Shown one piece after another: positions 1,640 through 7,890 of a stretch of 32,198 nt of DNA. Origin of the DNA: a virus. Positions within the stretch are counted from its first letter, which is position 1, and every line of letters starts with the position of its first letter. The notes beneath the pieces are model-generated. The model saw only the letters and a program-made list of their open reading frames with translations. It did no database searches and was not told where the DNA came from. The stretch lies in IMG/VR virus record IMGVR_UViG_3300013093_000162, positions 1 through 32,198 of that record. One strand, given 5' to 3'. The translations under genes and the position numbers were made by a program.

Positions 1640-1711
1640 TAATGCTGATGTTGTTGACATCTAATGGAATAGGCATGCTGGACGGGGGTTCGAAACCCCC
1701 CACCTCCACCA

Positions 1712-1806
1712 TGGATACACGAACATCCTGCGAGATCGTTGCTTTAGGGTAGGGTGACAAGAAATAGAACAGCAACTAATACTTGTTTTATTTGTGTATC
1801 TTTGAT
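1712..1806 (+). other. tmRNA intervening segment (removed on maturation)
   Basis: This 95-base spacer joins the 3' end of the acceptor piece to the 5' end of the coding piece. Its ends pair with each other: 1714-1723 with 1791-1800 (10 pairs, one G-U), nearly stacking on the acceptor stem. Inside, GTTGCT (1738-1743) pairs with AGCAAC (1771-1776). Such a closed loop fits a precursor cut by RNase P before 1807 and by 3' processing after 1711; the cutting itself is inferred from known two-piece tmRNAs. Confidence 0.75.
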
Positions 1807-1881
1807 GGGGGTGAATTGGGATCGACGGGTGCAATAAAGATAAGATTGAGACTGAAGCAAAAAAAACTAAATGCAAAAACT

Positions 1882-1929
1882 GCATCTAACGACAATGTTC
1901 CTTATTCCGCAATGAAAGTTGCTGCTTAA
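1882..1929 (+). other. tmRNA tag reading frame (15 aa)
   Basis: From a GCA resume codon the frame reads ASNDNVPYSAMKVAA followed by TAA (1927-1929). The terminal VAA matches the hydrophobic end that ClpXP-type proteases recognise in ssrA tags. The inner NDN resembles alphaproteobacterial tags (ANDN...), while V-P-Y and the VAA end also recall cyanobacterial ones. The GCA start is chosen by analogy; a resume codon one or two triplets later cannot be excluded. Confidence 0.8.
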
Positions 1930-2015
1930 GAATTGAGTCTGGGGTATGAGCTCCACCCTATTAAATAACGGGCTCACTACACTTTAAACACAAACACAAC
2001 ACATAGGAGACTAAA

Positions 2016-3146: not shown

Positions 3147-4070
3147 ATGACTACTAATTTTGATGCTCTTAAGCAGAATCGCAAGTCCAATTTCGATAAG
3201 CTAACCTCAGAACTTAACAAGCTTAATTCAGGTTCAGCCAACAATCAGGACAATCCAAACAATGATGATAGGTACTGGAAACCAGACGTTGACAAAGCAG
3301 GCAACGGTTATGCGATCATTCGTTTCCTTCCCGCTCCAATTGGAGAAGACGTTCCTTTCGTACGCATTTGGGACCATGGGTTTCAAGGTACTGGAGGTTG
3401 GTATATCGAAAAGAACCTCAACTCTCTTGGCAAGCCAGATCCAGTCTCGGAATACAACTCCAAGCTCTGGAACTCCGGTATTGAGTCTAATAAAGAGTTA
3501 GTTCGTAAGCAGAAGCGTCGTCTTTCTTACTTCTCAAACATCTATGTTGTTAAGGATCCTACTCGTCCTGATAACGAAGGTAAGGTGTTCTTGTATAAGT
3601 ATGGCAAGAAGATCTTTGATAAGCTTAATGAAGCTATGCATCCTCAATTTGCTGATGAGAAGGCTATCAACCCATTTGATCTTTGGGATGGTGCTAACTT
3701 CAAGTTGAAGATTCGTCAGGTTGAAGGTTATCGTAACTATGACAAGTCTGAATTGGATTCAGCTGGTCCATTGTTAACTGATGATGATGCTATGGAAACC
3801 ATCTGGAAGAGCGAACACTCTTTGCAGGAACTTCTCGATCCTAAGCACTTTAAATCTTATGATGAATTGAAGATGCGTTTGGAAAAGGCTATTGGTATTT
3901 CTACTGGTAATACTGGTGGATCACAGTCCAATTCAATGGATGAAGAAGATGAAGCTTTCCCTGTTCCTCAGAAGGCCACTCCCGCTAAGGAAGCACCTAA
4001 AGCATCTGCACCTTGGGATGATGATGCAGATGATGATCTCAGCTTCTTTAAGAAGTTAGCTGCTGATTAA
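3147..4070 (+). CDS. 32: Single-stranded DNA-binding protein gp32
   Basis: Coats single-stranded DNA in replication, recombination and repair and recruits gp59. The 307 residues (T4: 301) keep the whole layout: a basic N-terminal segment with NRKSNF (11-16) for cooperative binding, the core with DHGFQGTGGWYIE (76-88) and a YVVKDP...NEGKVF block (133-148), and an acidic tail rich in Asp near residues 288-297 that in T4 contacts partner proteins. Odd: T4 uses one His and three Cys to hold zinc; only the His (77) remains and the protein has no cysteine at all, so it must fold without that zinc. Cyanophage gp32s look similar. The coding sequence is visibly less AT-rich than its neighbours, which suits high expression. 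Its stop shares TTAA with the convergent gene. Confidence 0.95.
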   Translation: MTTNFDALKQNRKSNFDKLTSELNKLNSGSANNQDNPNNDDRYWKPDVDKAGNGYAIIRFLPAPIGEDVPFVRIWDHGFQGTGGWYIEKNLNSLGKPDPVSEYNSKLWNSGIESNKELVRKQKRRLSYFSNIYVVKDPTRPDNEGKVFLYKYGKKIFDKLNEAMHPQFADEKAINPFDLWDGANFKLKIRQVEGYRNYDKSELDSAGPLLTDDDAMETIWKSEHSLQELLDPKHFKSYDELKMRLEKAIGISTGNTGGSQSNSMDEEDEAFPVPQKATPAKEAPKASAPWDDDADDDLSFFKKLAAD

Positions 4071-6280
4071 GGACCAGCAAGGTCAAAGTTACCAAAGGTA
4101 GCTCTATCCATATGCGACATAACAGGAGCTGTGATGACAGCTCCTGAACTTGTTCTAGGGGTAGAAGGAGCACCACCACCACCTCCAGCAGCACCACCCA
4201 CAGTAACGATGACTGGAGCAGGTGCAGCATTAGCATTAATAGCAGCATCAGTAGAACTTTGTGCAACAGTAGCGCCTGATTGATTTTGAGCTGGAGTAAT
4301 GGCTCCCACACCTCCTTTATCTTCACCTGAAAAAGGATCTCCACCTGTAGTGTCTTTCGACACATCCATCCACATTTTAGCTAACTTTATGTTACCTTGC
4401 TTCAAAGCTGCAATTGCTTCTTTAGCATTACCAGGTGGTATGGTACCATCATTTTTACCAAGACGAATCTGTTCTAACAAATCTACTATGTTATCTGATG
4501 ATGTGTCAAAAGCGCTAAGTGGTTGTGTTTCAGGTTGAGCTGTTGTAACCTCTCCACCTGCGTTTCTATCTGTAGCTACTTTAGCTAATTGTTCTTCACT
4601 TATACTACCAGCTTTCATAGCTATTTGAGCTTCTTTGAAAGACATGTGAGGTGCTGTTGGTTCTTGAGCAGGTGGCTCAGACGGTGTACCACCCATTGAC
4701 GTTGGTAACCATTTCTTAGCCCAATCAGGTATTAATGAAGTTACCCAACCAGTAATGGCTTTACCCATATCAGTAAATGCACCTGAGATTCTATTACCAA
4801 CACTTGCAAAATAATTAGTAACCATATCCTGAACTTTTTGGAAAGTATCAGTTATGGTAGTAACAATATCAAAATTTTTCCACCAAGTAGTTATATCATC
4901 AGAGAATCCAGTAAATAGAGCTACTGTATCATCTTTTAATTTACTAAACCAACCTATAATATTATCAGCTAATTTGAAAGTAGAATCTATCCAACTCTTG
5001 ACAACATCGGTTGCATCATTAAATGCACCAACAATATCATCTTTTAAATCTACAAACCATTGAATAATATCATCCGCTATTTTAAATGCCGTATTTATCC
5101 ATTTTTTAACGGTATTAACAGCATCATCAAAAGCACCAACTATATAATCTTTAGTATCTGTGAACCATTGAATAATATCATCATATATTTTAAATGATGC
5201 ATCTATCCATTTCTTTACGGTATCCACAGTAGTATTAAAAGCGTCTTTTATAAACTGCCATGCATTGTGAACAAAATCAATATACATTTGTCCAATATCA
5301 TGACTATCAAGCCAATCATTTAATGATTTCGCAGTGTCTGTAAATCCAATAGAATCTAATATAATGGCTACTAGTCTTCCTAGACCAGTTAAAAGAGTGC
5401 CACCAATTGATGCAATACCTTCAAGCAAAGCATCGAACCATTTACCTTGTGCCAAATCATCAAACAACTTAGTTAAATGACCAAACATTTTAGCCCAGTC
5501 AGCTGCTTTTAATGATGCTAAAACACCAACTAATAATAATAATGGTGCATTAATAAATTCTAAGAAACCCATTAAGCCTTCAAATACACTGCCTAGACTA
5601 CCTAGTATACCACCGGTTTTTTTACCATCACCGCCAGCTTTACCACCTTCAACACCACCACCTTCTGGTGCAGCTGCTTTTACTTTTCGTCGATCAAATT
5701 TAGATAATCGAAATTGTGTACCAAGAGCATTAAGAATTTCTGATAATGTTTCATCAATATTTTTTACTATCCCTATAAGGCTACCTGGTCCACCACCAGT
5801 ACGCCCACCACCTACTTGAGTATCTGGTTTACCAGCCTTGACTATTTTATTTAATCCCAAGGTAGATAGTGTAGACGATATAATAGCTTTAGGGCTAAAA
5901 TTACCAACTGTTTGGCGTTTTATATCAGCACCAATAAGACTAGCCACATTTTTTACAGGGGATGCCGCAGCTGAGGCAACGCTCTTACCAAGCTTTTGAA
6001 TAGTACTATCTAAGCTGCCTGGACCTTTGGCTTGTTGTCTATCTACCTGTTCACCACTACCATTTATTGTTCCACCTGAAGTGGGTGTCTTTATTTTTTT
6101 AGGTGCACCTGTTGCTGGTTTATTGGGGGCTGGAATATCTTCAATGCCAGCTAAGAAAGCACGTACAACTGAGGCACTGGCTGGTTTGCCCTTACTATCT
6201 ACTATGTTGCCTTTTTCATCATAATAAAATTTCTCAGTACCAACTCGGCCAGCCACAACCTTCTTTTTATTATCAGCCAT
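4067..6280 (-). CDS. 29: Tail tape-measure / hub protein (gp29-like)
   Basis: Likely sets tail length and sits inside the tail tube. At 737 residues it would span roughly 110 nm at 1.5 angstrom per residue, a T4-sized tail (T4 gp29: 590). It has a Gly/Pro/Lys-rich N-terminal third, hydrophobic segments at about 232-260 and 285-315 as often seen in tape measures, three 36-residue repeats (about 347-456) with Trp and Asp pairs, and an Ala/Gly/Pro-rich low-complexity C-terminus. It is the last gene of the minus-strand tail block after gp26 and the gp51-like gene, the same neighbourhood as T4 29. Sequence likeness to T4 gp29 is not evident, so the name rests on length, composition and position. 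Its start overlaps the gp51-like stop. Confidence 0.7.
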   Translation of the reverse strand: MADNKKKVVAGRVGTEKFYYDEKGNIVDSKGKPASASVVRAFLAGIEDIPAPNKPATGAPKKIKTPTSGGTINGSGEQVDRQQAKGPGSLDSTIQKLGKSVASAAASPVKNVASLIGADIKRQTVGNFSPKAIISSTLSTLGLNKIVKAGKPDTQVGGGRTGGGPGSLIGIVKNIDETLSEILNALGTQFRLSKFDRRKVKAAAPEGGGVEGGKAGGDGKKTGGILGSLGSVFEGLMGFLEFINAPLLLLVGVLASLKAADWAKMFGHLTKLFDDLAQGKWFDALLEGIASIGGTLLTGLGRLVAIILDSIGFTDTAKSLNDWLDSHDIGQMYIDFVHNAWQFIKDAFNTTVDTVKKWIDASFKIYDDIIQWFTDTKDYIVGAFDDAVNTVKKWINTAFKIADDIIQWFVDLKDDIVGAFNDATDVVKSWIDSTFKLADNIIGWFSKLKDDTVALFTGFSDDITTWWKNFDIVTTITDTFQKVQDMVTNYFASVGNRISGAFTDMGKAITGWVTSLIPDWAKKWLPTSMGGTPSEPPAQEPTAPHMSFKEAQIAMKAGSISEEQLAKVATDRNAGGEVTTAQPETQPLSAFDTSSDNIVDLLEQIRLGKNDGTIPPGNAKEAIAALKQGNIKLAKMWMDVSKDTTGGDPFSGEDKGGVGAITPAQNQSGATVAQSSTDAAINANAAPAPVIVTVGGAAGGGGGAPSTPRTSSGAVITAPVMSHMDRATFGNFDLAGP
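4913..5242 (-). repeat. Three tandem 108-bp repeats in tape-measure gene
   Basis: On the minus strand three units of 36 codons follow one another, anchored by VKKWI at residues 355, 391 and 427 (VKSWI in the last) and by DDIIQWF or a variant. The DNA is also repetitive: CCATTGAATAATATCATC appears twice, 113 bases apart. The regular register suggests tail length could change by whole units. Confidence 0.8.
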
Positions 6281-7161: not shown

Positions 7162-7890
7162 TTATATAAATGATAAAAGTGCCGCCAGTTGATTTGTTCT
7201 ATTTCTAATAATAACAGGTGAGGTTACATTTAATAATTCTCTAATAAAAGCTACTTCATTATTGATACCATATTGCTGGTTCATTATAGTATTTTCTAGA
7301 GAATCGGTTATGTCATCCATAGTTCCTTCATCTAATGTGTCGGCAGTCCATGAAGTGTATGTAAAAGTAATTGGTAACTTGACAAGATGATCTGTTGCAC
7401 CCCAATCTAATTGAACATCACCGACAATAATCGGATATGCTTCATTTAAAGTATAGGTGACAATATCAGATCCTGTATCATCAAAATGGACGATCTCAAC
7501 TGTTCCATAATAATCTGATGGATATTGGAATGTATTATAAGAAAGACCTTGTGCTGTTGCATTAGGATTTGTTTGTTGATTGAAATTAAATATAGACTGC
7601 ATCCAAGTATGAAAGTATTTTAATACTCTACCTTCTGCATCGTTAAAGAATGATAGATTAACATCCTGAAATATGACACCAATTGGTCTCTTCTGAACAA
7701 TACCATATCCTGAAGGTTTAATTTCATCAGTCTGCCAGCCAATACCTGGTAGGCTAGCTGAATCACAATAGAAGCTGATTCTACTATTAGGATTAAATGG
7801 TGAAGATATATTAACAAGGAATTTAGAAGACTTAGAAAGTCCACCAACCGAATTAACTGCACCAAGAATTTCGTTTACATTAAAGGCCAT
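7162..7890 (-). CDS. 54: Tail-tube-fold protein, probable tube initiator gp54-like
   Basis: A 242-residue protein with the look of the tail-tube superfamily (gp19, gp48, gp54): an N-terminal helix, then FYCDSASLPGIG (40-51), alternating beta strands, DVNLSFFNDAEGRVLKYF (76-93) and a late beta segment KLPITFTYTSW. In T4 the tube is nucleated on gp48 and gp54; a gp48-like gene lies across the divergent promoter at 9009, so this is the best gp54 candidate. It is larger than T4 gp19 (163) and smaller than gp54 (320). It overlaps the upstream gene by 11 bases. It could instead be another tube or hub-ring protein. Confidence 0.6.
   Translation of the reverse strand: MAFNVNEILGAVNSVGGLSKSSKFLVNISSPFNPNSRISFYCDSASLPGIGWQTDEIKPSGYGIVQKRPIGVIFQDVNLSFFNDAEGRVLKYFHTWMQSIFNFNQQTNPNATAQGLSYNTFQYPSDYYGTVEIVHFDDTGSDIVTYTLNEAYPIIVGDVQLDWGATDHLVKLPITFTYTSWTADTLDEGTMDDITDSLENTIMNQQYGINNEVAFIRELLNVTSPVIIRNRTNQLAALLSFI

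Follow-up and report, generated by a model that had tools for sequence, protein, structure and literature searches.

A permuted two-piece tmRNA gene in the exonuclease-gp33 locus of T4-like phages, and probable small protein genes in the tmRNA spacers of relatives

The window (the whole stretch of DNA analysed here) is a viral record of 32,198 bases with a G+C content of 34%. Its tmRNA gene lies between a PDDEXK exonuclease gene and a gp33-like gene, as in T4-like phages of the Melnitz and Mosig type, and the neighbouring genes follow in the order PhoH, phrog_298 exonuclease, tmRNA, a 71-aa frame, gp33-, gp59- and gp32-like genes, tape-measure, baseplate and tail genes. The gp33-, gp59- and gp32-like genes, together with the T4 baseplate set, confirm the assignment to a T4-type phage that had been made by an earlier, sequence-only reading. 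The 71-aa frame (nt 2016–2231), situated between the tmRNA and the gp33-like gene, is preceded by AGGAG and is without a PHROG match. The features of the locus are as follows.

859–1605, + strand: exonuclease gene (phrog_298), upstream of the tmRNA, used as synteny anchor
1609–1614, + strand: degenerate -35 position, TTGCTT (in relatives TTGACA or TTGACT, 17 nt before TATAAATA)
1632–1639, + strand: T4-type late promoter box TATAAATA, position conserved in relatives
1647–1661, + strand: 5' hairpin of the first RNA piece, GAUGU-UGUUG-ACAUC, seen in the sequence and matching the alpha_tmRNA 5' hairpin
1649–1929, + strand: permuted tmRNA core, full RF04321 model, 98.2 bits, E 3.6e-18
1684–1700, + strand: T arm, 5-bp stem with loop UUCGAAA (sequence, Rfam alignment)
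1701–1711, + strand: acceptor 3' strand CACCUCC (1701–1707), then discriminator A and encoded CCA (1708–1711), from the sequence
1712–1806, + strand: spacer, 95 nt, non-coding, with paired ends (GGAUACAC with GUGUAUCU); folding z -5.1, helix covariation in relatives
1807–1813, + strand: acceptor 5' strand GGGGGUG with G3-U70, where the mature message piece begins (sequence, Rfam)
1814–1826, + strand: D-arm-like GAAUUGGGAUCGAC region of the tRNA-like domain, ending UCGAC (Rfam alignment)
1882–1929, + strand: tag frame GCA...UAA, ASNDNVPYSAMKVAA (ARAGORN calls, relatives, sequence)
1942–1976, + strand: H-type pseudoknot, GGGU 1942–1945 with ACCC 1955–1958 and UGAGCUC 1947–1953 with GGGCUCA 1970–1976 (sequence; alpha_tmRNA match to 1978)
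2278–2511, + strand: gp33-like late-promoter transcription regulator (phrog_254), downstream of the tmRNA

A single RNA gene was called in the window by ARAGORN, a permuted tmRNA (tmRNA*) at nt 1619–2020. The covariance search that had been proposed was significant, with scores well above threshold for both the full RF04321 (tmRNA_permuted) model listed above (gathering threshold 47) and RF01849 (alpha_tmRNA; nt 1611–1978, 72.4 bits, threshold 50). The window tmRNA is alphaproteobacterial in type, and the claim of a complete permuted two-piece tmRNA at nt 1645–1985 in a T4-type phage is confirmed by ARAGORN, Rfam and the sequence. The T arm, acceptor strand and encoded CCA come first and are followed by the spacer, an order seen both in the sequence and in the ARAGORN call, and the CCA end at 1711, the start of the 5' piece at 1807 and the 95-nt spacer between them had been placed correctly. 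The acceptor strands had been described as perfectly complementary; all seven positions do pair, and one of the pairs is a G-U wobble (G3-U70), which is the alanine identity pair of tmRNA. After the acceptor 5' strand the sequence up to nt 1826 reads GGGAUCGAC. The 5' piece also carries the tag frame and pseudoknot that had been predicted for it.

The tag frame encodes ASNDNVPYSAMKVAA followed by UAA, so that a resume codon and a tag frame with small or hydrophobic end residues are present. ARAGORN placed the start of the window tag at AKTASNDN; GCA 1882 is most likely the true start because the tags of the close relatives L009 and L010 were called as ASNDNVPYSAMKVAA. The tag ends in MKVAA rather than the usual ALAA. 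This type of ending, MK[VI]AA, is found in the window, L004, L009 and L010, while other relatives have ALAA. The whole tmRNA region folds better than 100 of 100 dinucleotide-shuffled sequences (z -2.8). With 98 bits the window scores below most of its relatives, which range from about 90 to 147 bits.

The ends of the window spacer pair with each other and extend the acceptor stem, and spacer plus acceptor folds better than all of 200 shuffled versions. Pairing between spacer ends was assessed in 102 thinned viral spacers, each of at least 40 nt, by comparing the two ends of the same spacer with ends swapped between spacers. The mean score was 21.7 for own ends versus 11.1 for swapped ends, the highest of 200 swap means being 12.1, and pairing of at least 6 bp was found in 97 of the 102 spacers versus about 46 after swapping. 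This is strong evidence for compensatory change in the helix that closes the spacer, and for a precursor that would fold as one long helix. Most spacers end in UGAU, which is able to pair with CCA.

The motif TATA[AG]ATA occurs 75–82 nt before the CCA end in 27 of 31 thinned relatives (window included), where shuffling gives an expectation of about 1% per sequence. Four other copies of TATAAATA are present in the window: one is within a gene, and three are just upstream of structural genes. Since the box is no more frequent in total than expected, the late box is supported by its position and not by its count. In relatives, a sigma70 -35 element (TTGACA or TTGACT, 17 nt before the box) with at least 5 of 6 matching bases is found at 21 of 29 tmRNA promoters, compared with 0 of 12 other TATAAATA sites of the same loci. 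The natural reading is that the promoter of these relatives combines an early (sigma70) and a late element. The window tmRNA promoter matches at 3 of 6 bases. Given the T4 late-promoter box at nt 1632–1639, late expression of the window tmRNA is plausible, and with TTGCTT at the -35 position mainly late expression is predicted.

Relatives were also collected by searching with the exonuclease gene as anchor, that is, without selection for the RNA, which gave 72 loci. Among the 47 of these with at least 2.5 kb of downstream sequence (near-duplicate contigs included), a permuted tmRNA was present within about 2 kb in 39, and for this reason the tmRNA gene is regarded as a standing feature of the exonuclease-gp33 locus in this T4-like phage lineage.

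The window is not the first case of a phage-borne two-piece tmRNA, as such genes have already been reported in a few marine phages (Melnitz, Mosig). The two-piece tmRNA of the Methylophilales phage Melnitz was described by Buchholz et al. 2022 (PMC9004378). Their survey of phage genomes yielded 53 two-piece tmRNA structures, of which 50 came from marine or aquatic samples, and 47 related contigs gave 17 permuted tmRNAs. When every form is counted, the tmRNA database holds 79 unique tmRNA sequences from phages (PMC11915505). Melnitz (MZ577097; PMC9004378) resembles the window in having a permuted alpha-type tmRNA, in the gene order PhoH, PDDEXK nuclease, ssrA, gp33, gp59, gp32, and in a TATAAATA box at the same distance. 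It differs in its longer spacer (142 nt versus 95 nt, non-coding, in the window), in an intact -35 box (TTGACA versus TTGCTT), and in a tag and pseudoknot unlike those of the window. Melnitz also has a glutamine riboswitch just after the tmRNA (L214, nt 3622–3670), although this is not a defining feature of the Melnitz/Mosig-type group (PMC9004378). A similar riboswitch was considered for the window and rejected, as there was no Rfam match.

Early expression of the Melnitz tmRNA was inferred by its authors from a sigma70 prediction, and that study admitted only intergenic promoters and those that overlapped an ORF end by no more than 10 bp (PMC9004378). The Melnitz TATAAATA box lies, by offset, at locus position 3224, inside the annotated tmRNA span (3208–3660), and may have been overlooked owing to this position.

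Pelagibacter phage Mosig EXVC030M (MT647606) likewise has an annotated permuted SsrA between a nuclease and a gp33-like gene; its spacer is short (44 nt) and its tag is GEDNFALAA. A TATAAATA box at the usual distance before the Mosig tmRNA was looked for and not found. Motifs of the manA RNA type occur near the tmRNA in Mosig (L213, nt 7400–7607) and in L502 (nt 1813–1987), and no manA match was found in the window. The two-piece tmRNA of alphaproteobacteria (RF01849) shares with the window the gene order, the tRNA-like domain, an ANDN-type tag and the closing pseudoknot. Spacers of the sampled alphaproteobacteria are mostly 10–48 nt long, whereas those of T4-type phages range from 10 to almost 300 nt. 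More distant examples of phage-borne ssrA are the tRNA-like-domain-only tmRNA of phage DS6A and the one-piece tmRNAs of mycobacteriophages (PMC4131195), which are tagless or in one piece, in contrast to the permuted, tag-bearing RNA of the window.

The sequence-only reading had taken the gene to imply capture from a bacterial host with a permuted tmRNA. A tree was reconstructed from the tRNA-like and tag regions (225 columns, with modest support at depth and with SAR11 rows not identifiable in the host sample). Of the 72 host-labelled rows in this tree, 69 fall into a single group (99/99) that contains neither the window nor any other T4-type phage copy. The window and L009 group together (100/100) within a cluster of seven related phages (93/93). 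The remaining three host rows (L391, L407, L412) fall among the phage copies; they come from a bin with eight copies, from a phage-like contig and from a second copy, and look viral, mixed or like second copies. The bacterial bin behind L391 (G033) and two further bacterial assemblies (G030, G036) hold two to eight permuted tmRNA copies each; the additional ones may belong to viruses or mobile elements. A recent capture is not seen, given the separation of the 69 host rows and the single synteny kept by the phage gene across divergent phages. These results suggest that the window gene was inherited within the phage lineage and is not visibly a recent host capture. With modest deep support, 225 columns and SAR11 rows not identified, they argue only against recent capture from the sampled hosts, and an old capture from SAR11 is possible.

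Judged by the nearest relatives of its segments, the window tmRNA locus is a mosaic. The spacer is 98.9% identical to that of L006, with 46% identity in the pseudoknot region, while the comparison with L009 gives 53% for the spacer and 87.5% for the pseudoknot region. L004 (nt 1853–2260) is an apparent chimera, with a window-type tag and pseudoknot, nearly the window's spacer, and a different tRNA-like domain; its match is weak (71.4 bits).

Gene anatomy, conservation, the promoter box, the covarying spacer helix, the phage context and the fixed synteny can all be read from the DNA, and we put the probability at roughly three in four that the window carries a functional phage ssrA gene, permuted and alphaproteobacterial in type, which acts in ordinary trans-translation with host partners. 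For its transcription and timing, processing, charging, use of host SmpB and benefit to the phage, we infer the following course. A single precursor would start near nt 1645 from the TATAAATA promoter, and the acceptor strands (1701–1707 and 1807–1813), continued by the spacer ends, would form one long helix joining both tmRNA parts. Host tRNA-processing enzymes would cut out the spacer (1712–1806), so that the acceptor piece would end in CCA at 1711 and the message piece would start at 1807. The RNA would be charged with alanine by the host alanyl-tRNA synthetase and bound by host SmpB, the likely partner because ten related phage records yielded no SmpB gene in a search that worked in positive controls. 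The control of ribosome rescue, or retagging of proteins, that the sequence-only reading had suggested would likewise need host SmpB. Mainly late in infection, the RNA would free ribosomes that have stalled on broken mRNA and add ASNDNVPYSAMKVAA to the unfinished proteins, most likely for ClpXP-type degradation, a fate that is assumed, since the tag ends in MKVAA and not in the usual ALAA.

The unusual tag end also bears on a different use of the RNA, in which the phage tmRNA would compete with the host tmRNA for SmpB and alanyl-tRNA synthetase and add a tag that proteases read poorly, so that unfinished phage proteins are spared rapid degradation. The shared MK[VI]AA ending of the window, L004, L009 and L010 speaks for this, as does the reported inhibition of tmRNA by a tRNA-like-domain-only molecule of the DS6A type (PMC11915505; PMC4131195), and yet most relatives keep ALAA, and tags ending in VAA are known in hosts, for example in Caulobacter, which counts against competition. 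The whole tag and pseudoknot are conserved as well, which would be needless in a plain decoy. Competition is considered unlikely.

Both the lower score of the window and its mosaic make-up weigh against a working gene, and with the degenerate -35 box they could indicate a decaying or passively carried mosaic that is functionless in the window phage. Such decay seems less likely again than competition, as the acceptor stem, T arm, CCA and tag frame are intact, and so are the pseudoknot, the late box and the spacer helix; L009 and L010, moreover, carry a gene of the same type. Some cellular sequence is present in IMG/VR, and bacterial bins in the host sample hold phage-like copies, so a misassembly or contamination that had linked host and phage DNA was considered too. 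On its contig the gene is flanked by T4-type genes, the tree parts the phage copies from the main host group, and the junction is seen again in many contigs and in two phages that were isolated and sequenced; this explanation was rejected as extremely improbable. A working phage ssrA remains the preferred reading.

The spacer of the window has no conserved small ORF and is non-coding. A short frame does run through this spacer and those of L004 and L006, but the three are almost identical and too alike for the frame to bear on coding. In relatives the spacer is probably gene-bearing, with genes between the tmRNA halves for a membrane protein of about 38 aa (MKNPLVREVSKWMFKAYILWSICADITLLAGIIYLVFF) and for two or more small proteins unrelated to it. 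The transcript would then serve as message and tmRNA precursor at once, with AAAGGAG in the closing helix, and translation and processing would be able to compete. In the membrane-protein loci this Shine-Dalgarno-like AAAGGAG follows directly after CCA, inside the spacer-closing helix, and the stop codon of the gene lies one base before the mature tmRNA 5' end.

The nested pattern was found in at least 120 viral stretches, using a search that required TGA one base before GGGG and TGANGGGG; the flanking tmRNA halves were not required. Among the 130 matches listed (fetched loci, duplicates included), the tRNA-like TCGAC is nevertheless downstream in all 130 and CTCCACCA close upstream in 119, and these matches include 60 distinct translated forms. 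The gene is present in L026, L029, L035, L037, L051, L066 and many of L215–L332, and in the exonuclease-anchored set it occurs in 12 of about 50 tmRNA loci. Some of the contigs that carry it are large (235 and 158 kb, for example), and two others have T4-type neighbours. Across 33 representatives of less than 90% identity, entropy by codon position is 0.67, 0.32 and 1.04 and pN/pS is 0.29, values by which the nested small membrane protein is under purifying selection. Its single hydrophobic segment averages 2.13 on the Kyte-Doolittle scale over 19 residues, and a ribosome-binding-like tetramer is found upstream in 28 of 32 representatives with a start.

The protein gave no match to Pfam (curated cut-off) or PHROG, the nested pattern was not found in 84,980 bacterial and archaeal species (one genome each), and tblastn against 50,697 phage records found none. 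Free-standing copies exist in L500–L505 and support a real gene that is able to sit inside or outside the spacer. For example, in L502 the gene is directly upstream of a tmRNA whose spacer is without it, and in L501 it follows a TATAAATA box, where the fetched sequence showed no tmRNA. L504 and L505 have it just before another gene, which in L504 specifies a three-helix holin (PF11351, E 1.8e-12; phrog_3427). There are hints here of a lysis or membrane role. The viral contig of L501 also carries a full-length elongation factor Tu gene (nt 4301–5491).

Two further nested families are unrelated to the membrane protein. One begins MNWDWHWISWFKG... (7 sequences, pS 0.18, pN 0.03) and the other MWIYKCN... 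(6 sequences, pS 0.42, pN 0.10), and these substitution values show purifying selection in both. The loci of these two families are L340, L346, L348, L353, L359, L364 and L377, and L345, L349, L358, L368, L373 and L382. Other nested candidates have few distinct members (L091/L104; L158/L166/L168/L182/L185; L033/L294/L312/L328; L214/L376; L046/L055), and for families D, E, F, G and H their number is too small for a good test. The largest cluster of spacer ORFs comprises 93 frames, most of which stop 13 nt inside the mature part; it was excluded, being judged mostly a mirror of another frame in the same DNA. In the sampled alphaproteobacterial spacers, a frame in common with the phages was found in only one, on a phage-like contig. 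No report of protein genes nested in a tmRNA gene was found in the part of the literature covered by the search.

A two-piece ribosome-rescue RNA is confirmed as a standing part of a T4-like phage lineage. The promoter layout, with a late box in nearly all members and a sigma70 -35 element in most that is nearly lost in the window, makes the timing of the tmRNA testable and bears on the proposal of early tmRNA use by Melnitz. If the protein genes inside the tmRNA gene are translated, they would represent a compact coupling of a membrane protein to ribosome rescue.
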